Assembly: GCA_030247885.1 (NCBI GenBank)
Contig: JAPDRO010000004.1
Span: forward strand, 620,001 to 684,000
Direction: 5' to 3'
Source: Taxawa tesnikishii (nom. ined.)
Taxonomy: Eukaryota; Ascomycota; Dothideomycetes; Dothideales
Length of the DNA stretch: 64,000 nt
The translations under genes and the position numbers were made by a program. Of the stretch, positions 668 to 24,104 are shown one piece after another (within the stretch, counting starts at the first letter, position 1; every line of letters begins with the position of its first letter). The notes beneath the pieces are model-generated. The model saw only the letters and a list, made by a program, of their open reading frames with translations, had not been told where the DNA came from and made no database searches.

Positions 668-672
668 GTAGG

Positions 673-1046: not shown

Positions 1047-1051
1047 GTAGG

Positions 1052-4189: not shown

Positions 4190-5410
4190 CTTACTTTAAG
4201 TTATAAGGAACTAATCTAGCGCCTTTAAAACTTACTTAAATATTATCCTTTATAATTACTTTATTAAAAGTAATATAAAAGGCTAGTAGGAAGACTTCTT
4301 TCTTAACTTATATAGTAAAGTACTATAACTAGCTATTAATCTTCGCGTTATATACTTACTTTAAGGGAGTAAAATAGCTTATATTAAGCGGCTATAATAA
4401 GTATAATAAGTATAAGAGTATATAAAGAATAATAATCTTTTATTCTTTATAGTAATTATAGAAGTCGTAACTACTATAACTCTTATAACTATCTATAATT
4501 AGTAGGTAATATATACTTACTTAACGCGCCTTTATATACGTATTAAAGTACTTTAATTACTTTAAAGTAAGCTTATTTATTATCTAGCTATTAGCGCTAG
4601 TCTTAAGTACTTAGTTGCGAAGTAAGTCTATATACTAGCTTAATATAAGGACTTTACTACTAAAGATAATAAAGAATAAGATAACTTACTTAGTAGTATA
4701 AATACTTTAAATAATTATAACTTACTCCTAGTTACTTAGTTATATCTTTTAAGATTACTTCGTTTCTTAGAACTTATAAAGACTATTTAAGCGTTAATTA
4801 TACTTATTATAAAGCCTATCTTCTTAAAGTTATATATATCTTTATTTAGGATATTATACTTTTTCTTTGTCTTTTTAACTAGCTTAAACTAAGGCGTTAT
4901 AATACGTATGTCTTTATTTAAGGCTTACTAATAACTATATAAATAACTACGTTAAAGCTTAACTTCCTTAGTACGCGTCTTAAACTTATTTACTTAGTAC
5001 TTACTAATAAGCCCTTTATTATACGTAGCTAATAGATTATTAGCTATTTCTTTTACTATAGTCTTTATAGTACTTTTTCTCGTAAGTTTAACTTAAATAT
5101 ACGTACTATTATTACTTTTTCTTTTATCTTTTATAGTTTCTTTAAGTTAAACTTATAGTTATATTATACGAGCTTTTTGTTACATTATTATTTTAAAGTT
5201 ATTTAAGAGATGTTAAATACTTTAAATATATATCTTTAACTATTAAGAAAAGTTACTTAAGTAGTCTTAATAGTAAAGTATAATATATCTTTATTATAAG
5301 TTAATTACGCGTTATATTATAAAGGTATTATTATAATAGTTTATAATAGTCGTAATATTAGTAAGGGTAAACTACTTAGTAATAGTAGACTACTTAGTAA
5401 TAAAATACGT
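4190..5410 (-). mobile_element. Fot1-like DNA transposon, subfamily B, truncated copy (B1)
   Basis: The right end carries the B-subfamily terminal inverted repeat (ends at 5410 in a form of GTAATAAAATACGT, followed by the TA target duplication). The body is the reverse complement of the complete B copy at 42808-44654, covering the transposase N-terminus and DDE half. Homology stops abruptly at about 4190, so roughly 0.6 kb of the 1847-base element is missing. The transposase is of the CENP-B/DDE Fot1-pogo group and is destroyed by C-to-T changes. It reads on the minus strand. Confidence 0.7.
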
Positions 5411-5539
5411 TAAATATAAAAATACTTATAATTAATAATATTAATAAAAATAAATTAGAGAGTTAAACTTTAATAATCTTATTTTACTTAATTTATTACT
5501 TTATAAAATATATTAAGTAAGATAATAATAATTAAGTTA

Positions 5540-7386
5540 ATATAAATTATAGGGAAACTAACTAAGTAAGAAAGCCGACTACTAAACTATTACTTCTTTC
5601 GCGTTAATTACTATCTATATATTATAATAAGAATATAGTCCGAATTCGAGTTATTATATATATTTTTAAGTATTTTATCTTATTCCTCTTCGACTACTTC
5701 TTTAATTAGACGCTTACGTAGCTACCTACGCGGCTTTTTCTTCGCTATATTTACTTTCGCTTCCCTTACTATTTCGAGTACTTCTTACGTATTAAATATA
5801 AACTTTTCTTTTAATATAACTTACTTATTTTTTTCTTAGACTTTTAGGAATTAAAAAGCTCTTACTACTCTTTAACTTACTTTTATAAAGTTATATTCTT
5901 ACTATATATTACTTTAAAAGCGTAAGTTATTTATTCTATATAGCGCTTAATTAAAAAAGAAGATCTTATATAGCTTAAATTACTAAGTTAAGTAATATAT
6001 TTACTTTATAAAGTTTAGTACTATTTAAAGGAAAGCTATATAATAGCGAAAGGTTTAAATCGGCTTATTATAAAGGTATATAAGGTTATAAGTCTATCGT
6101 AGTCGACTTTATAAGTAACTTATTAAGTACTATTATAAGGCTTAGTAGTATAAGGCTTATACTACGCTATTTACTAATAATATTATAAGTAGTAAAGGCT
6201 TTAACCTTTACGTAGATATATATCTCTATTTACTTTACGCGTAATATATAGTTAAAATCGACTTATAAAGTAGTATTAGTCTCTAAAGTTAATATATACT
6301 TTAATAGTATAAATACCTTAATATTAAGTAGCTAAAATATATGCAAATAATAAGGTAGTAAGATAAGTAAGTCGATTATATTTTCTATATAAAAGGTAAT
6401 TACTTTCGCTATTATATAGCTACTATAACTATTTATAATTAGTATTCTTTATATTATAAAGTTATTAGGTTATATTAAGGGCTCGAAAACTATAGTTAGT
6501 TACTATAAACTATAACTATTAAATGTTTAGCTACTACTACTAGTCGAGAACTTTTAGTTTAAAGGTATATATATAAGTACTTATATTATATTAATATATT
6601 TAGCCTTAAAGATTATTAAGGGTAATATAGCTTCTCTAGTAGCGCTTATATACTTAATTACTATTATTTACTCCTAATAGCTTATAACTACCTTTTAGTT
6701 AAATACCTTATATATATTAACTAATACTCTTAATATTTAGCTTACTTTAATAATAAAGTTAAACTCGTCTATATTATAAACGCGCTTTAAAAGGTAATTA
6801 TATTCTATAAAAAGCTTTATTACTACGTTAAACTACTTCTTTATAGCGTTATAACTTATTATATTAAAGCGCGCGCTCTTAACTTAACGAGTCTAAATAC
6901 TTAAGATCTTAAGATAATAAGTCTTAAAGTAATTAAGTTACTTCTTACTAATTAGTTAAAAGAATAATTATAAAGTCTTCGATAATTATATATGTTTACT
7001 TCGAACTTCTTTAACTATTTATACGACTAACGTAAGTAAAGTAAGGAATTTAGTATATATAAGACGTATAATTTATCGTATTAATATCTTTTCTTTTATA
7101 TTTAAGAGAATTTACTTTATTTTATACGCTATAGCGTATAATTTATATTTTATTATTCGATTACGTAGAGTATTATAAGGGATCTTAAATACGCTAACTA
7201 CCTATTAAATTAAAGTATATTTCTTTTCTTTAAGAGTAGCGATAGTATCTTAAATATTAACTTTAAAATAAGTTAACTTATTAAGTATAAAAGCGCTTAT
7301 AATTAATAATAAGAATATTTAAAGATAAAAGAGTCGCATTTAAGTAGTCGGCTTCCCTACTTAGTTAGCTTCCTTATAGTTTACGT
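5540..7386 (-). mobile_element. Fot1-like DNA transposon, subfamily A, full-length dead copy (A1)
   Basis: A 1847-base element with terminal inverted repeats of ACGTAAACTATAGGGAAG type at both ends and a TA duplication (5538-5539 and 7387-7388). The minus strand encodes a Fot1/pogo transposase. In its reading frame one can follow the block LPPLIIFKA, a W-containing stretch and the IIDGHSSH-type catalytic motif, although nearly every CAA, CAG and CGA codon has become a stop. The same subfamily recurs at 31453-33297 and 46965-62570. The dinucleotides CA and TG are nearly absent, which identifies RIP as the cause of decay. Confidence 0.85.
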
Positions 7387-7682
7387 TAATCTTATTAAAA
7401 TTTATATATTTACTTTAAATAATTACTTATTAACTACTAAATAATATTAGAATTTTACTTAGTTAAGTATATTATTAAAATGTAATCTTAATAGAAGTTA
7501 GTAAAGTTGTAAGTCTTTGTTATATATATAGATTTATTTATAGAGGTAGTTAGGTAGTTGCGAAGCCATAGCCTACTGTTGCCGAGGTTTTGTAATGAGA
7601 AGTGCCAAGCGGTAGCCCCACCGATTAATAAACCTAACTGTGGCGTGGCCCTACACTTACAGCTCAGAGGGTTGGCAGTTAC
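7387..7682. other. Border between repeat block and gene island; promoter of the regulator gene
   Basis: AT-rich and RIP-like up to about 7540, then normal composition. The last 140 bases before the regulator start form its promoter and leader. A CGG-N8-CCG pair (7610-7623) lies here, but its spacing differs from the N6 palindromes in front of the other genes. No TATA box stands out. Confidence 0.5.
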
Positions 7683-9852
7683 ATGATGTTTGTCGGCATG
7701 GCAAGCATAGAGAATGGTGGCGCTCCGTCACCGTCCACATCCACTACAGGTCAAACAGCGGTCATACGACGCAAGCACCGCGCTGGTTTTCGAAGAACGC
7801 AGATCGCCTGTGAGAGATGTCGAAGCCGGAAAAACAAGTGCGACGGCAAGCTACCGGAGTGTTCGGCTTGCGAGCGAGCTGGTGTACCTTGTGTGATAGT
7901 GGACAGGCTGACGTGGAAGGAAAAACCACGAGGGCACGTGGAGGAGTTGGAAGCAGAAGTCAAACGTCTCGAAGCGCGTGTACGAGAGCTTGAAGTCGAG
8001 GTCACGCAGCTGAGGAACGGTGTTGAGCCGTCACAAAATGAGATCGCGGCTCAGCTGTCGCCACTCGAGCAGCTCGCCGCAGAGCCAACACCAGAGGATG
8101 TTTCTTCGACGATTGCACAAGACATCGATCTCCTCTCCCAGGACGTCATCTCGGAAAGAAAGTACATCGGCGAGTCCAGTGGTGTGTTCTTCGGGCATGT
8201 GCTCCAGACGGTCTTGCTTCGAGCAAACTACAAACACGATCAGAATGCTACCCACAAGAGCTTCGGATTGCAGATCGAAAGGCCGAGCAGCGCATTGTCT
8301 GCGTCTTCGGCACCATGTCGAACTCACGTCAGCCTGCCATTGCCAGATATGGCAGAGACGCTGCTCGAAGCTTTCTTCACCAATCGATGGCCAAGTCTAC
8401 CCTTCCTTCATAGACCGTCATTTCTAGAAAAGCATTACTCTCGAGTCATGTCTCTAGGATACGGAGCGGATCCGGTTTCCTTGTTCCTTACGTTGATGGT
8501 CTTTGCGTTGGGCGCGATCGACCTCCGTAGGCGTGGTCCAGACCTCACTGTATCTCATCTGGATTACTTTACTACAGCCACGACGACCTACCTTTACCAG
8601 GTCATCGAGCGCGATAACATCGAGACTGTGCAGGGGCTGTTGCTCATGGCCGTATTCGCGATCAACGAGCCACGAAGCGTCAACGCATGGCATGTCGCTG
8701 GACAAGCTGTTCGGATGGCGATTGATTTAGGTCTACACCGCACGTCGACTAATAACTCTAATGATCTGCAACGATGCGAGATGAAGAAAAGAGTTTTTGG
8801 TCAGCCTACGCCATGGACCGTAACATTTCAGTTGCTCTCGGTCGACCTTTCGCAATCCGCGATGCCGATATCAGTGCATCGCTTCCCTTGCGCCTGACAG
8901 ACGACGACCTGGTGGCTGGAAGTATAACGGCTGCCAGCTGCGGACCGTTCTCCACCACACCTATGGACATGTCTACATTCATCCACGTGGTGAAGCTACG
9001 TCAACTCAACTCGAAAACTCTGGACGTATTCTATCCAGCTGATGCTACAAACTTCGAAACAGAGTTCATGGAACTACAGCGAACCAGTATCAGAGCAGAG
9101 CTGGACGAGTGGATCAGAGATGCCCCTCGGTACTGCCATCCAGCAGTCACCACATTCCAATCCACTGAGTGGTTCCAGATTGCGTACTCGCACGCACTAC
9201 TGCTCTTGTACAGACCTTCTCCATCAAGCCCTATCCCTTCCTTGGAGGGATTACAGCTGTGCGCCGAGGCTGCGATCAATCTCATCAGCTCTTACTCATC
9301 GCTCTATGCTAAGAACAAGATCACGTATACTTGGATTGCTCTGCACTCCCTCTTTATGGCCAGCATTACAATGCTTTATACGCTCTGGACGAGCCCAGAG
9401 ATGCGCCGAGGTACGAACAAAGCAGTCGTAAGGTCGAACGTCATGTCGTGTCTGGCACTTTTTGAGGTCATAAGCGGCACTTGGCCGCTGGCCACACGAT
9501 GCCACGAGATAGTTGAGCGCCTTGGAAATGCCACAATCACTCTCTTCGAGACACCGTCGCAAATGACTCCCGGAGTTGGGGAGGGAGGAACACCGTCACG
9601 CAATGAACAGCATCTCGGAGAAATCACAGCGGAATTCATGGACTGGTTTGCGGCGCATCCGCGCGAAGGAAATATGGCGGGGATGGACTTCCGAACATAC
9701 CGTTGCAGCGTCCCACAACAGAAGAGGGAGACAAATATCCGGATTTCCATTTCTCTTCGCTTCCGGATCTGGACGATCTGTTCCGTCAAGGATTCGACAT
9801 GAACCTGCCCATCACGATGGACGCGTTCGACCAAGGTAACACGACATGCTAG
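7683..9852 (+). CDS. Zn2Cys6 transcription factor with fungal-specific regulatory domain (two apparent frameshifts)
   Basis: Likely the pathway-specific activator of the neighbouring cluster, acting in the nucleus. The six cysteines of a Gal4-type zinc cluster (C-x2-C-x6-C-x6-C-x2-C-x6-C) occupy residues 43-70, followed by a heptad-rich, probably dimerising coiled coil at about 84-111. A fungal transcription-factor domain (Pfam Fungal_trans type) follows from about residue 225 (AFFTNRWPSLPFLHRPSF) to beyond 400. The C-terminus (DLDDLFRQGFDMN) is also typical. No intron is needed. Two single-base losses interrupt the frame: one in a T-run at 8794-8798 and one in a G-run at 9679-9682. With both restored the gene is 724 codons (723 aa). 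The start at 7683 is the first ATG; an ATG at 7698 is also possible. It is the only gene of the plus-strand series whose promoter lacks the CGG-N6-CCG palindrome. Confidence 0.85.
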
Positions 9853-10039
9853 CGATTTGCGGGGCGAAGCTTGGCGGCCGGCCATCGGATGAAGCCTGCC
9901 GCCGGATGAAGCCTGCCGCCTCCGGCTCCAGTCGTCGGATGCGTCCGACTCATGACGGGTCTTCTAGCCCGCAACACTGGTTCCAGATATTGTAAACTAT
10001 TCTATTGCAACCCAGCTTTGATCGCTTAAACACACAAAC
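9853..10039. other. Intergenic promoter region of the carrier gene
   Basis: Carries two tandem 17-base units (9886-9902 and 9903-9919), each starting with the half-site CGGATG, and then the full palindrome at 9936-9947. It is the only promoter here with this cluster of half-sites. Confidence 0.6.
9936..9947. promoter_or_regulatory. CGG-N6-CCG palindrome upstream of the mitochondrial carrier
   Basis: CGGATGCGTCCG, one base off the perfect CGGATGCATCCG found in front of three other genes. It ends 92 bases before the ATG at 10040. Inverted CGG/CCG half-sites with fixed spacing are the classic target of Zn2Cys6 dimers, and such a regulator is encoded next door. Confidence 0.7.
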
Positions 10040-11088
10040 ATGTCGACTCAAATCACTACAGCACTCCCTTTCTCCAAACCAAGGCAAAATGCAAAATCGT
10101 CCGACATACAGTGGCGGAATCTTTTCGTCGGTGCAGCCATGAACATTTTCCAAGTGTCTACGCTTGGGCAGCCCCTCGAGAATGTCAAGACGTTCGTATC
10201 CGCCAACAGAAATGCCTCACTGGGCGACGCAGCGCGCAGCATTTGGTCGAGAGGTCCGATCAAGGGCTTCTATCAGGGGCTTATCCCGTGGGTTAGTTAC
10301 ACTAGCAATGTTCCTCAAAGAACAATACCACTGACCAACTTTAGGCTTGGTTGGAAGCCTCGACAAAGGGCGCTATCCTGATTCTTACGTCGTCTGAAGT
10401 ACAGCGACAGGCAGTTGACGGGCTAGGCCTGTCACCTACCGCAGGCGCGACGCTGGGTGGAATTGCTGGAGGAGCGGCACAGTCGTATCTGACAATGGGC
10501 ATGACAACCTGCATGAAAACAGTGGAAGTGACCAGAAACAAAAGCGCCGCAGCAGGTGCGAGGGTGCCGGGCACAATGGAGACATTCTTCACGATACTCC
10601 GAACTCAGGGCATTCGGGGTGTGAACAAAGGAGTCAACGCAGTTGCGCTGCGTCAGATTAGCGGCTGGGCGTCCAGGATGGGCATCTCGAGGTTTGCGGA
10701 GGGACAAATACGCAGTTTGAAAGGCATATCGAGCACGGAGAAGTTAAGTATGGGAGACAAGATTGTCGCGTCTACAATCGGAGGCGCTTTGAGCTGTTGG
10801 AATCAGCCGTTCGAGGTTTGTCACCTGGTGTTACCTATCTTCCCTGCCGGTCATGGTCACTAACGGAGGCTCCAGGTGATTCGGGTAGATATGCAGGCCG
10901 TCAAGAAGGCACAAGCGTCGGAAACGCCGACCATGATATCGACGGCAAAGCTCATCTTCCGCGACAGTGGCCTTGGTGGCTTCTTCCGCGGCGTGGTACC
11001 GCGCATCGGTGTTGCCGCCTGGGCTACGATCTGTATGGTTGGTTTGGGTGATTCAGTCAGAGAGAGGTTTGGAGCGGCAGCCAAGTGA
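10040..11088 (+). CDS. Mitochondrial carrier, tricarboxylate (MttA/Mtt1/Ctp) type
   Basis: Predicted inner-membrane exchanger of di/tricarboxylates between mitochondrial matrix and cytosol. Three exons (10040-10291, 10345-10815, 10876-11088) with GT-AG introns of 53 and 60 bases give 312 codons (311 aa), the usual carrier length. The three mitochondrial-carrier repeats are visible by their signature: QPLENVKTF in repeat 1, a degenerate CMKTVEVTRNK in repeat 2, and QPFEVIRVDM in repeat 3. The TCMKTVE variant of repeat 2 is, as I recall it, characteristic of the fungal tricarboxylate carriers that include MttA of Aspergillus terreus and Mtt1 of Ustilago maydis, which export cis-aconitate for itaconate synthesis. 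The frame is intact. It lies between the regulator and an aconitase, which fits a tricarboxylate substrate. The exact substrate cannot be read from sequence. Confidence 0.85.
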
Positions 11089-11689
11089 CTTGCGAGCGAG
11101 TGCTACATACCCTCGCGTGGCCAGACATCACTGCCCCCATGGAGGATCAAGATGCAACGAAGCGCAAGAGAATGCTACTTGCGCTCATGCTTCGCGTTAG
11201 CATATGATATAGGCGTTTTCCGTATATCTCAAGTCAATAGAGGTCGGATTGGTGATGTCCCCAATTCATGAGGATTCATGAATCTTTAAGAGCAGATGCA
11301 GTTTGAGCCAGTAGTCAAGTCCTCGATGCCATCGAAAAATTGACCAGATACCCCAGGCTTGACCTGTATTCATGATACATGTATACCTCAGCAAATAAGA
11401 CTTCGGAGGAGCCAAGACTGCGGAGATCAAAAAGATTAGATTACGGCAAACCTTCCGATCAGTCAGTCAGTCAATCCGTACTCGTACTCTACGACAGACT
11501 TCAAAACAAATACAACCACACAACTAATCCTCTCGACCACCACTTTGATCTCAAGGTCCTGATATAAACCTCTTCGCCATGATCGGCTACATGTCAACCA
11601 AGCATTCCTGGGATGGTTCTCTGGCGTTCCAGGCCTGGACCTGCAAATGTGAAGATTACCGACAGCCGGAGCGCAACCGTCCTCTGCCA
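11089..11689. other. Intergenic region between carrier and aconitase genes
   Basis: About 600 bases with normal composition. No convincing gene: the short open frames here lack domains and splice logic. It contains a small GTCA/CAGT repeat at about 11459-11475. It presumably holds the carrier 3' end and the distal aconitase promoter. Confidence 0.5.
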
Positions 11690-11701
11690 CGGATGCATCC
11701 G
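11690..11701. promoter_or_regulatory. CGG-N6-CCG palindrome upstream of the aconitase gene
   Basis: Perfect CGGATGCATCCG, ending 87 bases before the ATG at 11789. Its position relative to the start is close to that in front of the carrier and lactonase genes, and it favours 11789 over the upstream in-frame ATG at 11579. Confidence 0.75.
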
Positions 11702-11788
11702 CCGACAGCACACCCGTTGCATTTTCTATACACCCAAGAGACATCCCCTCGAATGTCAAAGATTCTGTGCCGTCTTACCTTTCCAACG

Positions 11789-14303
11789 ATGCTCCTTTCC
11801 AGATTGGCGAAACGGTTGCCAGGTGCTGCCAGCACCCGCTCTTTAGCTACTGCAAGCTCATCACATGAGCTGGGCAGGATCCCCATCAGTCGTTACGAAA
11901 AGTCTACGTTTATAGACTATGCAGAACTCGACAGGAAAACTCAGCAAGTGCGAAGCAAGTGTGTAAGCACTGAGCGACTCGATTGGATGTTTGGCTGAAC
12001 AATTTACAGGCTGAACCGACCGCTCACTTTTTCGGAGAAAGTGCTTTACAGCCACATCGACAACATCGAGGAGGCTGATATTCGAAGAGGAGAATCTTAT
12101 ATCAAGCTTCGGCCTGCCCGAATCGCCTGTCAAGATGCGACCGCCCAAATGGCGCTCATCCAGTTCATGTCCGCAAATTTGCCTGCTGTTGCCGTACCTA
12201 CGACTGTTCACTGCGACCATCTTATCGTGGCTCGGGATGGACATGAAGCGGACTTGGCTGCGGCGATCGGCACGAACAAAGAAGTCTACGATTTTATGAA
12301 GAGTGCGTGCGCAAAGTACGGCGCGGGCTTCTGGAAACCGGGCGCTGGAATAATACACCAAATCGTGCTTGAAAACTATGCATACCCAGGAGGTCTGATG
12401 ATTGGCACGGATTCTCATACTCCCAATGCCGGCGGGTTAGGCATGGCAGCCATAGGTGTGGGAGGTGCAGATGCGGTCGATGTCATGTCTGGTTCGTCTT
12501 GGGAATTGAAAACACCAAAGGTTGTTGGTGTACATCTCACTGGAAAGTTGTCAAATTGGGCATCGCCGAAGGGTGAGTCTTTGCTTGCGGAATCGCGAAC
12601 GGCGGAGATCGCTAACAAGGTCGCGAAGATGTCATCCTCAGGCTTGTCGGAGAACTGACCGTTAAGGGAGCCACTGGTTCCATCATCGAATACTTCGGTT
12701 CTGGTGTGGAATCATTATCCTGCACTGGTATGGCCACAATTTGCAATATGGGAGCCGAAACGGGAGCGACGACTTCCATGTTTCCCTATACGCCTTCAAT
12801 GGGTGCTTATTTGCAGGCGACATCAAGGAGCTATATACGCGATGCAGCATCAAACTGGCGACACAACTTGGTGGCAGACAACGGCGCAGAGTACGACAAA
12901 GTCATCAACATTGACCTTTCGAAACTAGAACCTTTTATCAACGGTCCCTCCACCCCGGATCTTGCTATCCCAGTGTCACAGTTCAAGAGCGAGGCAGCAA
13001 AATCAGGTTGGCCGAAGGAGATCAGTGCTGGACTGATTGGTTCATGTACGAATTCATCCTTCGAGGACCTGAGCCGCGCTGCTTATCTCGCCAAACAAGC
13101 TCTTGACGCGGGCCTCAAACCACAAGCGCCGCTCATATTGTCGCCTGGCAGCGAACAGACTCGTGCAACTCTGGAGCAAGCTGGTGTCTTGGATATCTTC
13201 GAAAAGAGTGGTGCTACTCTGCTAGCTAACGCATGTGGCCCATGCTGCGGTTCATGGAATCGAACCGATATGGAAAAAGTATGCATCAATCCCGCTAATG
13301 TGTACTCAAAGCAACTAAGAAGAACAGGGTGTCAAAAATTCCATCATCACCTCCTATAACCGCAACTTTACTGGTCGTCTTGACAGCAACCCAGCTACCT
13401 CAATTTTCCTTGCCTCACCCGAGACAGTGATTGCAAAGGTATTCGCAGGCTCGCTCGACTTTGATCCTGCAGTGGACACAATCGCGAGTCCACACGACGG
13501 TGCATTCCAATTCCAACCTCCTCCAAGCGGTGGCCTGCCGGAGAATGGATATGAGTTGGCAGATCACATCTACACACCACCACCAGCAGATCGCTCAAAC
13601 GTGCGAGTGGACATATCCCCACATCAGACAGAATACAGCAATTGACGCCCTTCCAACCTTGGTCTGGCCACGACTTCGAGAACCTTCCCATTCTCATCAA
13701 GGTCGAGGAAAGTGTACGACCGACCACATCACGCCGGCTGGCCCCTGGTTCCGATATCGCGGCCATCTCGAAAACATCTCCAACAATACCTTGATTGGTG
13801 CAGTTAATGCAGCCAATGGCAAAGTCAACAATGTCCAGAATGTGTTCACCAAAGAATGGGCGGGCGTGCCGCAGACCGCGAAGGACTACAAACAGCGTGG
13901 ACAGCAGTGGGTCGTTATTGCTGACCACAACTACGGTGAAGGCTCATCACGCGAGCATGCAGCATTGCAACCACGCTTCTTGAACGGGGTCGCGGTTATT
14001 GCCAAGTCGTTCGCCAGAATTCACGAGACGAACCTCAAGAAACAAGGTATGCTGCCACTAACCTTTGCGGATCCAGCAGACTACGACCGGATCGATCCAA
14101 CAGACCGAATCAGCCTACTTGGTCTCACGGAGCTGAAACCGGGCAGGCCGCTCGCCATGGTTGTTGAAAGAGAGGATGGCAGAAAGTGGCGTACTACCCT
14201 CAAGCAAACTTTCAACGAAGAGCAATTGGCGTACTTTCGGGCGGGAAGCGCTTTGAATTTGATGGCCGAGATTGCTCAGCGATCAGTTGCGGTATCGCCA
14301 TAG
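11789..14303 (+). CDS. Aconitase paralogue, mitochondrial type (two apparent frameshifts)
   Basis: Aconitase-superfamily [4Fe-4S] hydro-lyase, expected to interconvert citrate, cis-aconitate and isocitrate or a related tricarboxylate. Four exons (11789-11958, 12010-12572, 12629-13278, 13328-14303) with introns of 51, 56 and 49 bases. The N-terminus ([20 protein letters not shown]) looks like a mitochondrial presequence. Conserved features: HCDHLI (about residue 124), GTDSHTPN (about 189), cluster ligands C384 in LIGSCTNSS and C447/C450 in [11 protein letters not shown], and the swivelling-domain loop [11 protein letters not shown]. Two single-base losses break the last exon, in a C-run at 13617-13620 and a G-run at 13707-13708. 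With both restored the length is 787 codons, as in mitochondrial aconitases. The usual CIGQWDR after the second cysteine reads CCGSWNR here, so this is a divergent paralogue rather than the housekeeping enzyme. Confidence 0.88.
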
Positions 14304-14676
14304 AAGCAAATCTTCTACACCTGTATCTAGAAAATGAACCCCTGAAAGCGTCCGAAACCCTCGGCTTCCACTCACCTGCCGCCGTCTTATTTTCTTTGCC
14401 TCGTCAACGGGAAAACGTGAAGTACCAAAGGTACTAAATCAGAGACTTGGTCTGATCTTCTGATCGTTTTCCGATCAGGACATCTATTGCGACAAACATC
14501 ATACTTCTTCTAGACTCATTCTATGAGACCCAGTTTCGGGACTGGATCACCAGACACAGTGAAGCATGACCCCCACTTAAGCTACTCAACCTGTCCTACT
14601 CTTCCCCGTGGGGATCCATCCGGGGAAAAGACCGGCCGGACCAATTCACACAATACTACCCCCGCAAGAGGTTGAA
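14304..14676. other. Intergenic region between aconitase and permease genes
   Basis: About 370 bases without a gene. A short inverted repeat, TTCCCCG and CGGGGAA (14602-14608 and 14621-14627), encloses GTGGGG, which matches the CreA carbon-repressor consensus SYGGRG, and a degenerate ATCCATCCG half-site. Carbon catabolite control of the permease is possible but rests only on this short motif. Confidence 0.4.
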
Positions 14677-14688
14677 CGGATGCATCCG
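14677..14688. promoter_or_regulatory. CGG-N6-CCG palindrome upstream of the MFS permease
   Basis: Perfect CGGATGCATCCG, ending 156 bases before the ATG at 14845. Third occurrence of the motif in front of a cluster gene. Confidence 0.72.
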
Positions 14689-14844
14689 GTGCCGGTTATC
14701 GATCCCGATGTGTGGGATCCCCTCAATCATCCCATATCAAAAGCTGGCATCTCGTCAACAAAGTGAGCTCACTTGAGATCAACCCTCTTACGTTCCCCTT
14801 CTTTGTGTCAGCAGATCTCTACTACTTCAGATTGTATACCAAAC

Positions 14845-16672
14845 ATGGGCTTCGGAACTGTCTGGAGCAACTCGCCGTCCGGCAAGTATGTGCGGGCCAT
14901 CAAGAATTCACCCCCAGGCTTGTACAATCACCGTCTCCTTCTCACGGTCTGTATGTACGCTCTTGGCGGTATGCCCAGAGGTGAGTTTTGCACTTTGTGG
15001 TCAACGCGAAATCTTCATATGCGCTAACCGGTTTGCAGGATGGGACGAGGGCAGTACTGCCTCAATAACTCAGCTCAAAGCCTTCCAGTCCGAGTTTGGC
15101 ATCACTCCAACAAAAACCCCGACCAAGTCTCCAACATCGTCTCCTTCGTCAACCTCACCGCTGGTATCGGTGCCTTAGCCTCCTTCTTTCTGAATGACCG
15201 TCTCGGCCGGCTTTGGTCTTTCCGACTGTACATGGTCATCTACATCATCGGCAATCTTATCGAGACCTTTTCCTACGGTTCCCTGCCAGCCCTGTACGTT
15301 GGTCGCCTGGTCGTGGGTGTGGGTATTGGATGTCTGACAGTCACATGCCCAATGTCTATCGTCGAGATCGCTCCTAGCGCGACTCGAGGCCTTATGACCC
15401 TTTGGTTCAACGTCTGCATGCTTTCCTCTCAGATGATTGGGGTTTTTGTTGTGTATGGCTGCAACGTCAACATCACACCAAAAGCCAACTGCAATGGCAG
15501 GTCCCCTTTTCGTCCAGACATTTGTACCGGCTGTTGGACTTGCGATGTCCTTCTTTCTTTACGAGTCACCCCGATGGCTCGCGATCAGAGGCCGGCAGGA
15601 CGAGGCTTTGGCTGCACTGACCAATCTCCGAGGCCTTGCGCCTGACCATCCGCATCTGGAGACGGAATGGCGCCAGATTTGTGACCAGATCGCGCGCGAG
15701 ACAGCAGAATACGCCGACAGCGGTGCTTGGTCCATCATACGCGAGACGCTTTGCAAAGGTCAAACCTCCGACGCGTACAGCTCACAATCACCGTATACAT
15801 CCTTGCGCAGATGTCTGGTGCGAATGCGGTCACCAATTACTTGCCCGAGATCTTCGGCATCATCGGCGTTAAGGGGACCAACACGAAGATCTACTCATCA
15901 GGGCTCTACGCCTTTGCTAAGATGATCTGCTGCGTTGCCGCTTCTCTATTCCTGGTCGATGTTATTGGACGACGAAAATCGATGCTCATCGGTATCACGG
16001 TTCAGATGTTTTGTCACAGCTATCTTGCTGGATACTTGAACGTCCTGACCAGGAATGAGAATGCAGTCTCCAAAGGTTCTTCGAACTTCGCAATTGGTGC
16101 CATCTTTATTCATGCCTTTGGCTGGGCTATCGGTAAGCCTTACCCCTCATATCCTGGGCACCAGAATGACTCTAATCTCTCTCTCTAGGTCTTTACGCGC
16201 TTCCCTACCTCTTTGGCGCAGAGTTGTGGCCTAACCGCATTCGGTCCTTTGGCGGTGCTCTCTCGCAGTGCTTCCACTGGCTTTTCTTTTTCGCCATCAC
16301 GAAAGCTACCCCATCCCTTCTATCCGGAATGGCTACTTGGGGTGCTTTCCTTTTCTTCGCTGTTTGGTGCTTAATCGCGCTGGTCTACAGCTATGTGGTA
16401 GTGCCAGAGACGGCAGGAAAAGCTCTCGAAAACATTGATGAGCTGTTCGAAAGGCCTTGGTACCTGATGAGGAAGAATGCCGTCGTTGAAACCTTAGCGG
16501 TGGTGAAGGATGTCGATGAACCCACGCAACTGTGAGTTCTTTTGACTACGTTATCGTTATCTACAAGGATTTGTCCTGACCTAAAGTGTTCCACAGAGGT
16601 TCCATCAATCGTAAAGCCGGACAAGAGCCCACGGATACATGGATCGAAGAGGTTGGCAGAGATGGGAAGTAA
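14845..16672 (+). CDS. MFS transporter, sugar/quinate porter family (four apparent frameshifts)
   Basis: Plasma-membrane solute:proton symporter of the sugar-porter family, which in fungi includes quinate and other acid or polyol permeases. Four exons (14845-14980, 15039-16132, 16189-16531, 16597-16672) with introns of 58, 56 and 65 bases. Family signatures in order: LNDRLGRLWSF (loop 2-3), YVGRLVVG, EIAPSATRG, YESPRWLAIRGR (the PESPR motif before the central loop), DVIGRRKSM, and VPETAGKALENIDELF (the PETKG motif) at the C-terminus. Four single-base losses are inferred, near 15112-15116 (A-run), 15492, 15507-15510 (T-run) and 15755-15759. With these restored the gene is exactly 551 codons and all motifs fall in one frame. 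The substrate is unknown; the neighbours suggest a carboxylic acid. The ATG lies in a good context (CAAACATGG). Confidence 0.82.
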
Positions 16673-17091
16673 GGAGCAACATTTGCTAGCTTTACATCGG
16701 AAAAAGAATCTCTCTTAGTATGCATTCGGGAATATGAGATACGTGGAGCAGGTTGATGTATAGCACGGTGGAGCATGATTGCTAGATTCAAGGATGGGAC
16801 TATACGGTCTGCTCGAAGCATCGGTCTTTTGTGAATCAGTTGAATTTATTTATGGGGTTTTGATTGTTTTGTCAACGTATGTTTCCGGCATCGTCAGAGC
16901 GCAAAAAGGCCGCTCGAAGTAGTACAATAGACGCTTTTATGAGGCAAAGGTTTAGGGTGAGAGTGATCCGGCCAAGGCCAGCAAAGAACAAGTGTCTGTA
17001 TTTGCGGTTGCTATTGGTTCTGCATGCTAAAGAGCGCGTCGTTGCAAGATTGGAGACTTGCGGACCCCCATCGGGATCTTAGCCGGACCAT
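16673..17091. other. Intergenic region between permease and lactonase genes
   Basis: About 420 bases. It presumably contains the permease terminator and the distal lactonase promoter. No gene, repeat or RNA seen. Confidence 0.5.
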
Positions 17092-17103
17092 CGGATGTAT
17101 CCG
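17092..17103. promoter_or_regulatory. CGG-N6-CCG palindrome upstream of the lactonase gene
   Basis: CGGATGTATCCG, one base off the perfect palindrome, ending 72 bases before the ATG at 17176. It supports that start over the in-frame upstream ATG at 17024, which would place the site inside the coding region. Confidence 0.7.
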
Positions 17104-17175
17104 CTGTCCACTCCGCATACAATCTTACTTTGCCCCAGCTATCTCTTCACACGACGGCAACTCAGAAAATCCAAG

Positions 17176-18374
17176 ATGGAAGAACTGCCGAGAAATGAGG
17201 ACGGTGAAACTTGCCTTTACATCTCACAGTAAGCCGATATCACTCACGACTGTTGCAGGATTTACGAGTATGTGCACCCGGTCGCGTCCAACCAATCTAT
17301 CACCTGAAAGGCATGCATCAATACATCATTCACTGGATAAAAAGACCAGATGCAAGCTAATATGTTATAGTTTTGCCAACATTGAATGGCGTCTGCCGAA
17401 AGGATCATGGGATACACACGTCCATGTCTTTGATCCTCGCTTCAAATACTCAGCAAGTCGATCATATACGCCAGAAACAGCAACATGGGAAGACTTGCGT
17501 AACTTCAATTCCTCTCTCAGCGCCAACGATGGAGGAATGAACAACATTGTCCTGGTTCAACCTTCTCCGTACGGAACGGATAACTCTCTTGTCTTGTCGT
17601 TGCTTCGCGCTCACTCTCACACCGATGTACAACAGGCCTGCGACACCACGTGCCTTCTACGGGCGATTGTCGTAATAGATCCAGCAAAGGTCACCGATTC
17701 TGAGCTTGGTGAAATGAACAGACTCGGAGCACGAGGCACTCGAATCAACGTCCAGGCATCTGCAAACACCTCGGGGATACTGATTTAACAGAAGCCATTG
17801 AGCGCACAGCGAGTCGTATAGCGCAGCTTCCTGGCTGGTTGGTGCAGTTGTTCGTTGCCGGAAGTCAATGGGATGGTTAGAAAACCGTACGCACTGTGAA
17901 GCTCGCCCTTTACTGACCTAATACGAACCAGCCATCGCAGATACCATACTCGAAAAATCTATCACCGTGATTGCCGACCATCAAGGGGGCATGAAAGCAG
18001 CCTCAGCTCTGCCCAACGGTACCGATGTTCTGACGCAACCTGGAATGCGATCCTTGATCAACCTGGCTCGCCGTGGTAGGGCTTACATCAAGCTTTCCGG
18101 ATTCTACCGTTCCTCATCCTTCAAGACTGGTGGCTACGATGATCTACAGCCCATCATTGAGTATTTTGCTCGAGAGATTCCCGACCAGCTGATCTGGGGC
18201 AGCGACTGGCCGCACACGGGTTCAGGGTCCGGACGTACCGCAGCCACGCGCGAAATTCCTGAAGCCTTCAGAGATGTAGACAACGTCGCCGTAATGAGAA
18301 ATATTAGCAAATGGGTTGGGCCGGACGTATGGTGGCGCATGACGGTTCAGACACCTTCAAGGTTGTTTCGTTGA
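17176..18374 (+). CDS. LigI-like lactonase / amidohydrolase-2 family TIM-barrel hydrolase (one apparent frameshift)
   Basis: Member of the amidohydrolase superfamily group that includes LigI, which hydrolyses 2-pyrone-4,6-dicarboxylate to 4-oxalomesaconate. My model has three exons (17176-17228, 17371-17875, 17932-18374), giving 334 codons after restoring one base in the G-run at 17773-17776. The first intron (142 bases, GTAAGC to TTATAG with a CTAAT branch site) is longer than the others here and is the least certain part. An unspliced start at 17195 is the alternative. Visible active-site blocks are WDTHVHVFDP (the HxH of strand 1, residues 34 and 36), VIADHQGG (catalytic His) and WGSDWPHT (the conserved Asp of the last strand). 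The real substrate may be another lactone of a di- or tricarboxylic acid. The PrpF-type gene that follows mirrors the LigI-LigU pairing of bacterial 4,5-cleavage pathways. Confidence 0.8.
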
Positions 18375-18664
18375 TAGCAAGTGTATGTTCTTCAGACGCA
18401 ACAGACATATCAAACACATGTAATTCAGCGCATAAGTTGTTGCAGACGGAAGAGGGTGTTCCCGTATAGACGAGTTCAAGTAGATGGCTAAACTCCGCAT
18501 CATGCCAGAATCGTTTCCTTATGGTCCGCTACTGTCGGATGCATCCGAAATCCCAGATAAGGCACGGCGAATCCAATTATTATAAAGATGAAACTTGTTG
18601 AACTGTGGCCTCCTTCAACACACTCTCGATTACGGACACGTTACTTTTTACGGCATCATCTGGA
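18375..18664. promoter_or_regulatory. Promoter of the PrpF-type gene: palindrome, CCAAT and TATA
   Basis: Contains the perfect CGGATGCATCCG at 18536-18547, then CCAAT (18573-18577) and TATAAA (18581-18586), 79 bases before the ATG at 18665. This is the most complete promoter in the cluster, and its order supports 18665 or the next in-frame ATG as start. Confidence 0.65.
18536..18547. promoter_or_regulatory. CGG-N6-CCG palindrome upstream of the PrpF-type gene
   Basis: Perfect CGGATGCATCCG, ending 117 bases before the ATG at 18665. Fifth occurrence of the motif, and the third perfect copy. Confidence 0.75.
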
Positions 18665-19955
18665 ATGTGCAGGTCAGTTTCCTCGTCGGTGCACAAGCTG
18701 CGACTATGGGTTCGAGCAAACCCTCAGCGTCTCGTGACGCGCCCGAGAGACATGAGCACAGCATCGACAAGGGTGCAACGGCACGCACCCGCTTCTTATT
18801 ATCGAGGTGGTACATCACGAGCAGTTATGTTCCAACGGAAAGACCTTCCGGAGGACAAAACCGAATGGGCCAACGTTTTCAGGAAAGTCCTCGGTTCTCC
18901 GGATCCGGACAACGGGCGACAACTCGACGGCATGGGCGGCAACGTTTCGAGCCTTTCCAAAGTCTGCATCATTGAACCGGTGTCTGATGGTGCGGACATC
19001 AACTACACATTCGTAGCCGTAGGGATCCGCAATGATGAAGTGGACTTTTCGAGCAATTGCGGAAATATGACCAGTGCTATCGGACCCTTTGCTATGGATT
19101 CCGGGTTGATTGCAGTGGAGCAGGGCCAGAAAGAAGCCACGGTTCGGATAAGAAACACCAACACAGGAAAGTTGATCGATGCGACCTTTCCTCTGGATGA
19201 AGGAGGCAACGCTGCAAGCTATGGTGATTTTGCAATCGACGGTGTGGCGGGAACAGCGGCTAAGATCAAGTTGGCTTTTCAAGACCCTGCGTACGTAACG
19301 AAGCATTCAGCTCTCGATCCTGGAACATCTTCCTGACTGCCAATGTTTGAACAGTGGCTCCAAAACCGGCAAAATGCTCCCGACTTCCGCAGTAATCGAC
19401 ACTTTTGACGATGTGCCGGCGACCTGCATTGACGTCGGCAATCCGTGCGTTTTCGTCCCAGCATCTGTTCTCGAAGTAGAAGGAGACCTGCATCCAGATG
19501 CCATCGAAGCGCACCCAACTCTCTTGAGGCGTCTTGACAGTATCCGGAGACAAGCCGGCGTCAAAATGGGCCTCGCAAACGATCCTACCAAAGTCCCCGG
19601 CTCCATTCCAAAGATCGCAATGGTCTCAGCGCCAAAAAACGCCGATACTGACTTGGTCGTGCGAGCCATCTCGGTTGGCCAGCCCCATCGTGCTATCCCC
19701 ATAACCGTTGCAATGGCAATAGCAGCTGCGGCTAGAGTGCCTGGATCGACAGTTCAGCAAGCGTGCGCAGATGAGTTAGTGGATCGAGATGGAATCACAA
19801 TCGGGCATCCAACGGGGCGTATACTTGTCACAGCTAATTTTGACGAAAAAACGAACGAAGTCACAGACGCATCCGTTTTCCGGACAGCCAGACTTCTTAT
19901 GAAGGGGAGGTCTTCTGGAGGTGATACGATTACCGGGGAAGGTGTACAGATATAG
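18665..19955 (+). CDS. PrpF/LigU/Adi1-type isomerase of unsaturated tricarboxylates
   Basis: PrpF family (Pfam PF04303, DapF-like fold). Known members move a double bond in small unsaturated acids: bacterial PrpF (aconitate and 2-methylaconitate), LigU and GalD (4-oxalomesaconate), and Adi1 of Ustilago maydis (cis- to trans-aconitate). Two exons (18665-19290, 19355-19955) and a 64-base intron give 409 codons (408 aa) with no frame break. The N-terminal core reads SYYRGGTSRAVMF. K99 (SSLSKVCII) and C132 (SSNCGNMTS), 33 residues apart, match the Lys/Cys pair used by this family. The 30 residues before an internal Met (ATG at 18752) are Arg- and Ser-rich and free of acidic residues, like a mitochondrial presequence, so one gene may make mitochondrial and cytosolic forms. 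It directly follows the LigI-like gene. Confidence 0.87.
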
Positions 19956-20310
19956 GACCAAACTAGCGTAGTTGTTGATGTTAGTGTTATCGGTTCTTGA
20001 AGCTATGGACCCCGAAGAGGGTAAGAGGTTGAAACCTTGATATAAAGCTCATCTAGGCTACGTATCGCCGTATACTTGATTACTTAACTACTTAGAAAGG
20101 TTAAAGTATTAGAAGACTTATTGCGATAGTATCAAATAAGCTCTTCTTACTTCTAGGAGTATAGAGGATACTGTTTGCTATCAATATACAACATTCGTCT
20201 TACATATATGTGTGCACCAACTCACATCGATAACCTTGTTGAAGTAATTTTCTACTTGTTCAACTATGCATACTAAGTTAGTAGTCCTTTCACGCATCCT
20301 GCGTGGCAGT
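19956..20310. other. Convergent intergenic region
   Basis: About 355 bases between the 3' ends of the PrpF-type gene and the minus-strand MFS gene. From about 20035 to 20200 the sequence is AT-rich and poor in CA/TG, which may be a scrap of RIP-mutated repeat. No gene seen. Confidence 0.4.
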
Positions 20311-22464
20311 TTACATGATAATATTCGTAACCGTGTTACTATACCCGGTTGACACACTACCTGCTCTAGCCGTAGCCTGTCCCTTATGCTCCCCCTTCAT
20401 CGAAGCAATGTCCTCTTGCTCCATTATCCCACCCTGCTCCCCCTCCTCCCCCTCCTCCTCATCATCCATGTGGTCATCACCGTCATCGTCATCACCATCA
20501 TCATCACCATCATCTCTTACGGCATCTGCGCCCGATGTCTCTCTCATCCAGAAGGATTCGAGCCCACCAATCAGCGCCACCGCAGCCGTCAACCACCACA
20601 CTAACACCGCCTCGCCCTTGCTTTCTCCTACATTAAACATCCAGCCCGCGACCGTGGGGCCTATGGCCCTAGCGCCCGACGCGAAACTCGCGCTCACGCC
20701 ATTCACAACGCCCATCTGCGCCTCATTGCCGCCATCTTTGACGCTGTTCGTGAGCAAGATCATAATAGTCAGATATGCGAGGCTGCCCCAGCTGGTCTTC
20801 CAAAGACATGCGAGCACGATCGCAGCCCATTGCGCCGCGGAGCCGTTGGGCAAGCGAGAGATGTACGGCATGCTGAAGTAGAGCAGGACCCAGGTGAAGG
20901 CGGTTAGGCGGAAGCAAGGAAGGTAGCCGAGGCGGCGGATGATGGCAGGTGCGAGGGTGAGCTGGAAGATCATGGAGTATATTGCTTGTCCGGAAAAGAT
21001 CCAGCCCATGATGACGGGTGTAAGTCCGAGACCACCGGTGAAAAGGTAGAGGGATTCGGAAGGCTGATTCGATGGAGGCAGACTGAAGAAGACGGGCATG
21101 AGTTGGTCCAGGGCAATGGTATGACTGTTCACGTGTGTTAGGGCCGGGGGAACAAAGGGGTAACAATTTTGATAGCGGCTCGACTTACAAAGCCAGGATG
21201 CCATAGGCGAAGATGATTAGAATCACTTGTGGCGTGAATGCCGCTCTTACGGATTTGCTAACGGGCTTTATGATGCTTGGCTGCTCTGATCCAGTCGAAT
21301 CGGAAGCCACGACCTTATAGCCAAGATTATGCTGTTTCTCGCTCATGAGACTACCTGAGCCTCCTGACGATGAGGCAGATGCTGAAGGCGAATCAACAAG
21401 CTCAATATCATCTTTGAGCAGGCCTTCCGCTTCGTCGTCGTTGTTCGACCAATCGAAAGAGTCGATTGTATCACTTCGCTTGATCATGTGTCTCTGATGT
21501 GGCGCTCGAGCTGCCTTCCTAGTGAACAACCTCAATATCCAGTCCCCAAACTCAACACCTCTATCTCTTCGGTATCGGATCGTCGGATGGGTTTCGTGGA
21601 AGAAGAGACTGCCCACGATCATACCAGAGATGACCATGACGGCAGCAAAGAGATTCGGTAGTAAGAATGGATACGCAACCAGTATCGGATTTCGCTCACG
21701 AGGGAAAATCTTAGGGTAATTCGCCACGGGATCTGCCAGTGTACCGCCGATGAATGCACCGATGACAGATCCCAGACCCCAGGTTAGTGGCAAGAAGGTG
21801 TAAGCCCTTGGCTGATGCTCCGTCACCGTCACGACCTCGGCCACCATGGTCTGCAGCACACCACCGTTGCCATTGAGCAGTCCACCCACGAATCGTGCAG
21901 CCAGTGCTACGGTTAGACTTCTTGCAAAACCGAATGTCAACATACTGATACCGGTGCCGCCAAGTCCAACGAGCAGAACAGGTTTTCTGCCTATTCTGTC
22001 GCTGAGGCGGCCCCACATCGCGCTGCAAGAACATTCGGCTATGGCGAAGGAGGACGTGACCATTCCAGCGTAAAGCGAGATTTGGCTTTCGTTGGTGGTC
22101 ATGTTGAAGGAGGCGATCATGTAGTAGATGTAGGGGAAGATTGACGTGAAGGCGACCGGTTCCGCAATTCTCGCGAGTGCTGCGACACAAAACGAAAGCG
22201 ATTAGTAGGGAACAAGAGTTTTTGCTTCGTATCGCAACGGTCGCAATGGAATGGATTGAGCAGACGGTATCGTGTTATGCATTAGAGCCTTTCAGATTAC
22301 AGCACGCAGCAGTACGCAGCACGCTATGATAGATCATCATGCATTTAGACAGTCGGGAACGAAGACAACTTACAAAGGATAAGTAGCTGTTTCAGTGGGA
22401 AGGGCGTATCAGCTCTTGTCTTGACTCTAGGTCTCGTGCCACCATTGCCGGAGTACGTTGCCAT
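20311..22464 (-). CDS. MFS transporter, drug/organic-solute facilitator type
   Basis: Predicted 12-helix plasma- or vacuolar-membrane transporter of the MFS_1 type common in fungi (zinc-induced-facilitator-like / multidrug group). Three exons on the minus strand (22464-22374, 22179-21189, 21124-20311) with introns of 194 and 64 bases give 632 codons (631 aa), frame intact. The first helix starts at FPLKQLLIL and is continued by the exon 2 start (SLARIAEPVAFTSIF). The loop 2-3 signature GRLSDRIGRKPVLLVG is at residues 87-102. A long Ser/Asp-rich central loop separates the two halves, and the last 60 residues contain an unusual run of Asp and Glu. It faces the plus-strand genes and lacks the perfect palindrome in its promoter, so it may be an exporter at the cluster edge or unrelated. 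Confidence 0.85.
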
Positions 22465-23302
22465 CTTTTACCACACGTATCACCAGATCCCTCATGTCAA
22501 AGCGTCGGCTGGGCGAGCAGCAGGCTCATGCAGTCAGGACCAGACAAGATGGCGGGCAAATGTATGGCAAGGAAATCGAGGTAGTGCAGTTTGGAAGTGG
22601 GAGACCGGGAAAATGGGAAATGGAATGTTATCCACCATGCCTGAGATGGTACGGTGGATCCCCATCACAGTGACAGTGACAGTGACAGTGACAGTGACAG
22701 GTGTGCTGCACTACAGTTGATTTGGGCATCCCGTGCGGCTAATCGGAAACGCTCTATCGGGCGCCTTGAAGCGGCTGCCCTTTTTGTATGCGGGAGGCAT
22801 CAAATCTTTATCTTTCCCTTTCTTATTTCTTTCTCTCCCGGCCCGTGCACCCGAGTACCCGAGTACCCGAGTACACGCAGTGCGATTTCGTTATGACGTC
22901 ATCATTCCTGCATCACCTTGTCACCTTTCGAGCAGCACACAATGAAACGACGGTCAGATGAAACAACACACGATGGAACGACGGTTGGGACGGAATAACA
23001 CACGAGGAAAAGCAATCGAAAGCGTGAAACAACACCGCACACGGCGTACTTGTACTTAGCCTGCTCATGGAGGAGGCGAGAGGTCTCTTTCCCGAGCCCT
23101 TAGGCATCCGTATAAATAACCCAGGTTTCCGGCGGACTTGAGAAGGCCGGAGCGACTTTCACAGATCCTGGCTTCGGGCACTCTAGTCCATCAAAGGTGG
23201 TCAAAGTGTTCGTCTACTTGTCGACGAAGGCCATCACATTACCCTCTGATGGTCCTACCCACTTGGTGACCAAAGACGGCAACGTCAGCAGGTAATTCAT
23301 CA
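22465..23302. other. Promoter side of the minus-strand MFS gene, with microsatellites
   Basis: About 840 bases without a convincing gene. It contains CAGTGA x5 plus CAG (22668-22700), CCCGAGTA x3 (22850-22873), repeated GAAACAACACACGATGG-like stretches near 22942-23030, and a plus-strand TATAAATAA at about 23112. A near-match to the cluster palindrome, CGGTGGATCCCC, lies at 22652-22663. A short open plus-strand stretch (about 23140-23290) has no start codon. Confidence 0.5.
22668..22700. repeat. Hexanucleotide microsatellite (CAGTGA)5
   Basis: Five perfect tandem CAGTGA units and a partial sixth, about 200 bases upstream of the minus-strand MFS start. Confidence 0.9.
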
Positions 23303-23869
23303 TCAGCTTGACTCATCACATAGGGCTATACATTGACTTGTTGTGCTGTCTGTGTCAAGTTTGATGCATTCTGTCATTCCCTTTTCGAGTAGCACGACGA
23401 GTTGATTGGGATTCCGATCCTGGCGCAGCTGCATGGCATTCTGGTATGTAACCATTGTAGCGGGAGACCGGGATTGACCATGTATGCAGTCGAACACGAC
23501 CAGATCGGCGGCCGCAAGGTCATTGATCACTGTGGGAACAGTGCCCAGCTTTGTACGAAAGGCCTCCACTACCTGGGATGGGAAATCAATGTCCATATGG
23601 ATAGGCCTCTTGAACTCTTTCCCAGCAATGTCTGTAGAGCACAGCCTCAGCAAAAGATGCGCCCATATGCAGCTGGTCAAGCAGTTTTTACCCTTCGGAC
23701 CTTGGCAGTCAACGAACCGGACTTTCGACCGCTGTGCGGACTCTTTCTTTGATTCGCTGTTTAGGAAAGATCGGAGGTCTGCTGGGCTGACGGTAGTCAG
23801 GTTTCATGTTGGCATTATTCCGGATGAGATCGAAGTTATTCTAGTCTTAGGTGGCATGGAGCTTGCCAT
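23303..23869 (-). pseudogene. Unrecognised host-like reading frame with a premature TGA
   Basis: On the minus strand a frame from ATG at 23869 to a stop at 23303 spans 189 codons, interrupted by a single TGA at 23806-23804. The context (CCA ACA TGA AAC) fits a CGA-to-TGA change of the RIP type. The predicted peptide has a protein-like middle part (VRFVDCQGPKG; MDIDFPSQVVEAF; INDLAAADLVVFDC) but I recognise no family. It lies against the large RIP-mutated block, so leakage of RIP from the repeat is a natural explanation. An opposite-strand frame (23484-24056, 190 codons) overlaps it and looks less protein-like. It may also be the 3' part of a larger gene cut by the transposon. Confidence 0.4.
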
Positions 23870-24104
23870 AGTCACTGTAGCCGTGGGCTCGCGTATGAAT
23901 GATGTTGTCCTTGATGCTAGTTTTCGCCTACGAGTACGGACCCTGGAGTTCGTCGCAGGCGATTCATATATGACATCCAGATACGGCCAACAGCTCAAGC
24001 TACCTTCGAAGCTCCCGTGTAACGTGATTCCCCACTTGATGACCGATCCCACATGATGACCGATTTTGCGCATTACTAACAACCAACTTTTTCCTACTCC
24101 ACAA

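Follow-up and report, generated by a model that had tools for sequence, protein, structure and literature searches.

In a 64,000-nucleotide stretch of the ascomycete Taxawa tesnikishii (nom. ined.; contig JAPDRO010000004.1, positions 620,001 to 684,000; hereafter the window), one 12-base palindrome, CGGATGCATCCG, was found ahead of each of five plus-strand genes that adjoin the gene of a Zn2Cys6 regulator. We regard it as almost certain that this palindrome is a genuine shared regulatory site. On sequence evidence, it is also quite probably the operator of a pathway-specific regulon, read by the adjacent Zn2Cys6 protein, whose five products would serve an aconitate-like tricarboxylic acid. A single motif, adjacent and functionally linked genes, and recurrence beyond chance were found together, which is the combination by which we recognize a pathway-specific regulon, and the locus is a well-supported new example of an already known arrangement.

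A motif scan of the window reproduced all of the coordinates (9936, 11690, 14677, 17092 and 18536) and mismatches given in an initial annotation of this DNA, and also bore out its statement that the window holds no further full copy: beyond these five, there were no CGGATGCATCCG copies at one mismatch or fewer (Table 1). When two mismatches were allowed, eight matches were obtained in the 64 kb, five being the promoter copies; the three additional relatives lie at 14611, in the promoter that also holds 14677, at 19864, in the PrpF coding region, and at 41192, in AT-rich DNA. The relative at 19864, on the minus strand, is one mismatch away from CGGATGYRTCCG, the degenerate form of the motif in the initial annotation. 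With the centre left free, CGG-N6-CCG occurs seven times in the window, comprising the five promoter copies, one site at 18098 (coding) and one at 28253 (AT-rich DNA), and the central six bases are nearly uniform across the five copies. Half-sites of the form CGGATG are found at 9886 and 9903, 5' of copy 1. A short way ahead of copy 1, the DNA at 9886-9919 consists of two tandem copies of a 17-base unit starting CGGATGAAGCC, so that a stretch of 56 bases contains three CGGATG half-sites.

Table 1. The regulator gene, the five structural genes and the palindrome copies, in the order in which they lie in the window.
Feature	Position	Strand	Description	Distance to gene start
Zn2Cys6 regulator	7683..9852	+	PPR1-like zinc cluster, linker, coiled coil	
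Palindrome copy 1	9936..9947		CGGATGCGTCCG, one mismatch (central)	92 bases 5' of carrier ATG 10040
Mitochondrial carrier family protein	10040..11088	+	probably three exons; Mito_carr in 3/3 pieces	
Palindrome copy 2	11690..11701		exact CGGATGCATCCG	51 bases 5' of proposed aconitase ATG 11753
Mitochondrial-type aconitase	11753..14303	+	introns and frame breaks; Aconitase in 3 pieces, Aconitase_C in 1	
Palindrome copy 3	14677..14688		exact CGGATGCATCCG	156 bases 5' of MFS ATG 14845
Sugar-porter-type MFS transporter	14845..16672	+	frame breaks; Sugar_tr in 4/5 pieces	
Palindrome copy 4	17092..17103		CGGATGTATCCG, one mismatch (central)	72 bases 5' of amidohydrolase ATG 17176
Amidohydrolase (LigI-like)	17176..18374	+	frame break near 17785; Amidohydro_2	
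Palindrome copy 5	18536..18547		exact CGGATGCATCCG	117 bases 5' of proposed PrpF ATG 18665
PrpF-family isomerase	18665..19955	+	frame change or intron near 19333; PrpF 174.4 and 136.3 bits (Pfam)	

The sites had been said to lie 72-157 bases before start codons, a range that has to be corrected: the ATGs chosen here give gaps of 92, 51, 156, 72 and 117 bases. The aconitase gap would grow from 51 to 87 bases if the start were the next in-frame ATG, at 11789. Conversely, an in-frame ATG at 11579 would place the 11690 site within an extended aconitase frame, and since a TATAA at 11563 also lies upstream of the site, the 11690 site may be located within a 5' leader. Copy 1 begins 83 bases past the regulator stop given earlier (9852) and 133 bases past the stop of the second regulator piece (9802), and could therefore alternatively lie within the trailer of the regulator gene. 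The regulator gene itself is free of the palindrome upstream in the window scan.

Chance recurrence of the palindrome, or copying from a duplicated promoter or repeat, is exceedingly improbable. Shuffled sequence yielded on average 0.17 and at most 2 matches within two mismatches (100 shuffles of the 64 kb), against the eight real matches. In a test that did not assume the motif and used promoters of 300 bp each (the PrpF promoter was taken to 18661 here, three bases less than in the geometry test), a 12-mer common to 5/5 promoters within one mismatch was found, the reported best being the CGGATGCATCCG palindrome; any 12-mer reached at most 3/5 promoters in 1000 dinucleotide-preserving shuffles, in agreement with the initial annotation, which had judged chance recurrence very unlikely. 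Random placement would give one site per promoter window with a probability of 2.3e-7 for five sites, or about 1.4e-6 when a sixth site in the surrounding gene island is counted. Among 63 CGG-pair geometries tested, only the inverted CGG-N6-CCG was present in all five promoters, the runners-up being present in three, and inverted spacing 6 never exceeded 3/5 promoters in 5000 shuffles. What speaks for chance is that the motif is short and that, with all 63 geometries pooled, some class reached 5/5 in 3 of the 5000 shuffles. Because of this, the CGG-pair geometry taken alone is suggestive, and it is the central bases shared among the copies that make the case against chance. The flanking sequences of the five copies look unrelated by eye, and a repeat finder extended exact copies to 13 bases only; it also paired 9882, 9899 and 17088 over 15 bases. 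Chance and promoter duplication were thus both rejected, on the shuffle tests and the dissimilar flanks.

The initial annotation placed the regulator at 7683-9852. Its assignment to the Zn2Cys6 family was confirmed by the Pfam domains Zn_clus (E 7.3e-11; 42.4 bits, cut-off 21) and Fungal_trans (E 2e-17); the end at 9852 is less secure and needs another frame change, as the frame shifts between ~8774 and 8897 and the second piece ends at the stop at 9802. Among the 40 distinct Protein Data Bank (PDB) sequences listed, the best solved match of the DNA-binding region was yeast PPR1 (1pyi; E 1.2e-13), with an alignment of 79 residues that runs without gaps across the linker into the coiled coil. 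In Zn2Cys6 proteins, the linker determines the spacing between the two CGG triplets. PPR1 is described as binding CGGN6CCG (PMC11534201), and the PPR1-like linker thus predicts, from the regulator protein, the very spacing found in the promoters. This gapless linker provides independent support for the earlier proposal of a probable regulon with a predicted dimer site for this regulator, and we consider it very likely that the adjacent regulator reads the palindrome. The lysine by which Gal4 contacts CGG is presumably also kept in the regulator. That contact is described in PMC5559640. The protein would bind as a symmetric dimer, with a zinc cluster contacting each of the two CGG halves and six bases separating them, in the manner of PPR1, and would switch the five downstream genes jointly, probably when the substrate is present.

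The five structural genes were assigned to families by profile searches of their open frames, piece by piece and not as whole proteins; Pfam was applied to 24 pieces of the gene island. The Mito_carr score of the first carrier piece (20.8 bits) is below the cut-off of 22.3; the carrier may resemble yeast Yhm2. For the aconitase, TIGR01340 was the best model for all three pieces scanned, the middle piece matched mitochondrial aconitase entries with an E value of 5.8e-79, the motifs GSCTNSS and ANACGPC are retained, and the N-terminus looks like a presequence by eye; the first exon piece (11549-11995) had no Pfam family match. The same negative result was obtained for the piece at 14777-15175 of the major facilitator superfamily (MFS) transporter gene, which possibly ends at a stop near 16535 instead of 16672. 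The two amidohydrolase pieces scored 27.1 and 49.3 bits with Amidohydro_2 (cut-off 26.4), and 51.7 and 48.1 bits with NF042924, far below its cut-off of 500; the protein appears to be distantly akin to 2-pyrone-4,6-dicarboxylate (PDC) and 4-sulfomuconolactone lactonases. In the PrpF-family protein, alignment showed a lysine and a cysteine retained at the positions of K73 and C107, residues described for the Shewanella protein SoPrpF (PMC5690661). We treat it as a candidate trans-aconitate isomerase. Within 7683-19955, the open frames of the regulator, aconitase, MFS and amidohydrolase genes contain interruptions, as perhaps does that of the PrpF gene; introns do not explain all of these breaks, which may be sequencing errors or gene decay.

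Taken together, the five products would allow a tricarboxylic acid resembling aconitate, or its lactone, to be taken up and broken down. Import would fall to the MFS protein, and the amidohydrolase would perhaps open a lactone; the mitochondrial carrier would bring the acid through the mitochondrial membrane. The PrpF-family enzyme would shift the double bond, converting for example trans- into cis-aconitate, and the dedicated aconitase would deliver the product into the tricarboxylic acid (TCA) cycle. The sequence directly shows the sites with their non-random placement and spacing, the protein families and the PPR1-like linker; from these we infer binding, activation rather than repression, the inducer, the substrate, the order of steps and the direction of flux.

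The neighbourhoods of relatives in bacteria and archaea bear on the substrate. A tblastn search with PrpF returned 331 plasmid records, and the 25 listed have at most 53% identity and are mostly bacterial, with one archaeal row. Regions were fetched for 15 of these 25, leaving out H33, H35, H38-H41, H45, H46, H49 and H50, and 14 of the fetched regions were annotated. An aconitase-family gene lies within ~6 kb of PrpF in 6 of the 14 (H27, H28, H30, H32, H36 and H37), the tricarballylate dehydrogenase gene TcuA in 4 (H30, H32, H37 and H48), and one or the other in 7. A sequence search likewise located a relative of the window aconitase in 6 of the 15 PrpF regions. All seven regions come from the nine higher-scoring records labelled 'PrpF' (143-186 bits); none of the five records labelled oxalomesaconate tautomerase (109-132 bits) has an aconitase-family gene or TcuA nearby, and one of these five is near a tannase/feruloyl esterase. 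Plasmid clusters that combine, by annotation, PrpF, an aconitase-family gene and genes for tricarballylate or tricarboxylate transport were seen at loci L082, L084, L086, L088 and L091.

For the amidohydrolase, the best 80 of 373 relatives of the C-terminal piece were taken as loci. In 8 of these 80 bacterial loci, an aconitase-family gene lies 0.8-4.1 kb away; about 1.1 would be expected at the density seen in ten other genomes (73 matches in 70.4 Mb), a background obtained with a search of different sensitivity. Six loci (L003, L026, L038, L042, L057 and L076) pair an amidohydrolase relative with an AcnA-type aconitase, the families having been tested in L026 and part of L003 and judged by eye in the others; in L026, the cluster encodes an SGL-family protein and a GntR-type regulator beside AcnA, along with 3-oxo-tetronate kinase and decarboxylase. 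Against plasmids, the same C-terminal piece returned 87 records, with at most 36% identity among the 25 listed; the one neighbourhood fetched was unannotated. Because PrpF relatives neighbour aconitase or tricarballylate genes, and amidohydrolase relatives neighbour aconitase genes, we lean slightly towards an aconitate-like acid as the substrate.

Three other readings accept the palindrome as a real site. It may be read by a different Zn2Cys6 protein, such as a genome-wide regulator of the PPR1/UaY type; PPR1 illustrates that CGG-N6-CCG is also bound by other regulators, according to PMC11534201, and the adjacent regulator has no palindrome ahead of its own gene. The adjacent regulator itself carries the matching linker, however, which makes such a foreign reader unlikely. 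Moreover, cluster-local regulators usually control their neighbouring genes. An alternative of about the same low probability keeps the regulon and changes its substrate to an aromatic breakdown product, with the amidohydrolase opening PDC, the PrpF protein acting as oxalomesaconate tautomerase and the aconitase-like enzyme hydrating the product. In its favour, the oxalomesaconate tautomerase model gives the PrpF pieces higher scores (158.1 and 140.1 bits) than the PrpF model does (143.8 and 91.3 bits), all under the whole-protein cut-offs of ~440; against solved structures, the ranking varies by piece. PDB 2ffi, a putative PDC hydrolase, is also the top solved match for both amidohydrolase pieces, although further PDC hydrolase entries give a good match for the first piece alone (E 9e-05, against 0.52 for the second). 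On the other hand, the closest PrpF relatives read adjoin aconitase or tricarballylate genes in 7 of 9 cases, versus 0 of 5 for those labelled as tautomerases, so that the PrpF neighbourhoods favour an aconitate-like substrate over an aromatic one. The aconitase is closely related to mitochondrial aconitase, and the 24 Pfam-scanned island pieces gave no match to a ring-cleavage dioxygenase or aldolase. Furthermore, Ustilago Adi1, a demonstrated aconitate isomerase, is itself tabulated against oxalomesaconate tautomerase in PMC4720413.

The cluster might instead produce an acid or lactone that poisons aconitase, with its aconitase as a putative self-resistance copy, a possibility that we rate as low, if marginally higher than the aromatic one. 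The layout is shared with the itaconate-producing cluster of Ustilago, and trans-aconitate is described as an inhibitor of aconitase (PMC4720413, PMC11495376). None of the 24 pieces matched a decarboxylase, oxygenase or synthase, which argues against production; specifically, trans- and cis-aconitate decarboxylase and cytochrome P450 had no match in these pieces, which leave gaps between them and DNA beyond the window uncovered. The transporter is also of the sugar-porter type, whereas Itp1 of Ustilago is listed as EmrD-like (PMC4720413).

Several further observations weigh, like the tautomerase scores, against a regulon for aconitate-like acids read by the adjacent regulator. The evidence comes from the sequence of a single locus, and its frame breaks may reflect gene decay. 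Because the DNA upstream of ~7540 is AT-rich and bears a mutation signature, a site ahead of the regulator may have been lost by mutation. Relatives of the amidohydrolase or the MFS protein were found by sequence search in none of the 15 PrpF regions, and PrpF or an MFS protein of the window type in none of the 80 amidohydrolase loci. The bacterial counts contain near-duplicates (two Rhodococcus, two Shinella), and six of the eight aconitase-bearing amidohydrolase loci look by eye like one cluster type. A peptide-pattern scan of genome contigs with the N-terminal PrpF piece found no relatives, a negative that reflects the method because tblastn gave 331 plasmid records, and an aconitase piece had no relatives among viral contigs. 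Finally, the known lactonase for itaconate-derived 2-hydroxyparaconate is described as a different, small Rdo1-like protein (PMC9875883).

The closest known layout is the itaconate cluster of Ustilago. There, one motif found with MEME is reported in all annotated cluster-gene promoters and in no ria1 promoter (PMC6064134), the PrpF-family protein Adi1 interconverts cis- and trans-aconitate (PMC4720413), and a mitochondrial tricarboxylate carrier and an MFS protein are also encoded (PMC6064134, PMC4720413). As far as these descriptions go, both loci have a cluster-local regulator, one motif before the cluster genes that is absent before the regulator, a PrpF-family isomerase, a mitochondrial carrier and an MFS protein. 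They differ in that Ria1 is described as a helix-loop-helix protein with another motif, whereas the regulator here is of the Zn2Cys6 type, and in that the present locus additionally encodes an aconitase and an amidohydrolase. By analogy, the locus would work like a Ustilago-type itaconate cluster, yet we do not count it as a member. With PPR1 it shares the zinc cluster, the linker length and the six-base inverted spacing; the regulated genes are different, and the centre of the site is nearly uniform here.

The bacterial tar system is described as a regulator, a PrpF-superfamily isomerase and an MFS importer that together assimilate trans-aconitate, with cis-aconitate passing to the TCA cycle (PMC11495376). 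A PrpF-family isomerase, an MFS transporter and a local regulator are all present in the window cluster as well; unlike it, tar as described is a two-gene bacterial operon without aconitase, amidohydrolase or mitochondrial carrier. The adjacency of PrpF to an aconitase-family gene recalls the bacterial tricarballylate/aconitate clusters noted above (PrpF, AcnA or LeuCD, TcuA and tricarboxylate transporters), which differ in having bacterial regulators and neither an amidohydrolase nor an MFS relative. The PDC branch of aromatic degradation (LigI, LigU), which we take to combine a lactonase-like amidohydrolase with a PrpF-family protein as the window locus does, differs in that a mitochondrial-type aconitase here replaces the hydratase and that neither a dioxygenase nor an aldolase was matched in the pieces scanned.

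The content of the window is of a fungal type, with introns, a Zn2Cys6 regulator and mitochondrial-type proteins. The genes occupy an island of ~16.5 kb (taken as 7500-24050), with a GC content mostly of 48-54% per kilobase, embedded in AT-rich DNA. The flanks at 1-7400 and 24300-62900 carry a strong signature of repeat-induced point mutation, with TpA/ApT ratios of 1.77 and 1.87 versus 0.62 in the island, which has been spared; the second index of such mutation is 0.09 and 0.03 in the same flanks, and the values for the final kilobase (63000-64000) fall in between, at 1.10 and 0.99. An MFS gene akin to drug-efflux transporters lies on the minus strand at 20311-22470 (one of two pieces matched); its vicinity is palindrome-free, and it appears to be outside the regulon. 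Two pieces near 23300-24050 had no Pfam family match. At the right edge of the island, 24104-25400 may be the remnant of a DNA transposon, by eye, and includes a 47-residue piece without a Pfam match.

More tentatively, and with less than even confidence, we propose a dedicated fungal regulon that would assimilate or detoxify trans-aconitate, tricarballylate or a related lactonic tricarboxylic acid, having an aconitase, isomerase, amidohydrolase and mitochondrial carrier of its own, and a PPR1-like regulator reading CGGATGCATCCG. No such fungal catabolic cluster was described among the literature matches listed, a coverage that mostly excludes subscription journals. In full-text literature, the 12-mer CGGATGCATCCG was found only in unrelated work on human Orai1, and the inner 10-mer together with Zn2Cys6 gave no match. 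The agreement of motif, regulator and gene set brings a whole fungal pathway within experimental reach, and the nearly fixed centre of the palindrome offers a clean case for how Zn2Cys6 dimers read beyond the CGG triplets. If the substrate is indeed trans-aconitate or a related plant acid, the locus would be the equivalent in a fungus of the assimilation system known from bacteria, and would reveal the way in which a fungus copes with an inhibitor of aconitase.

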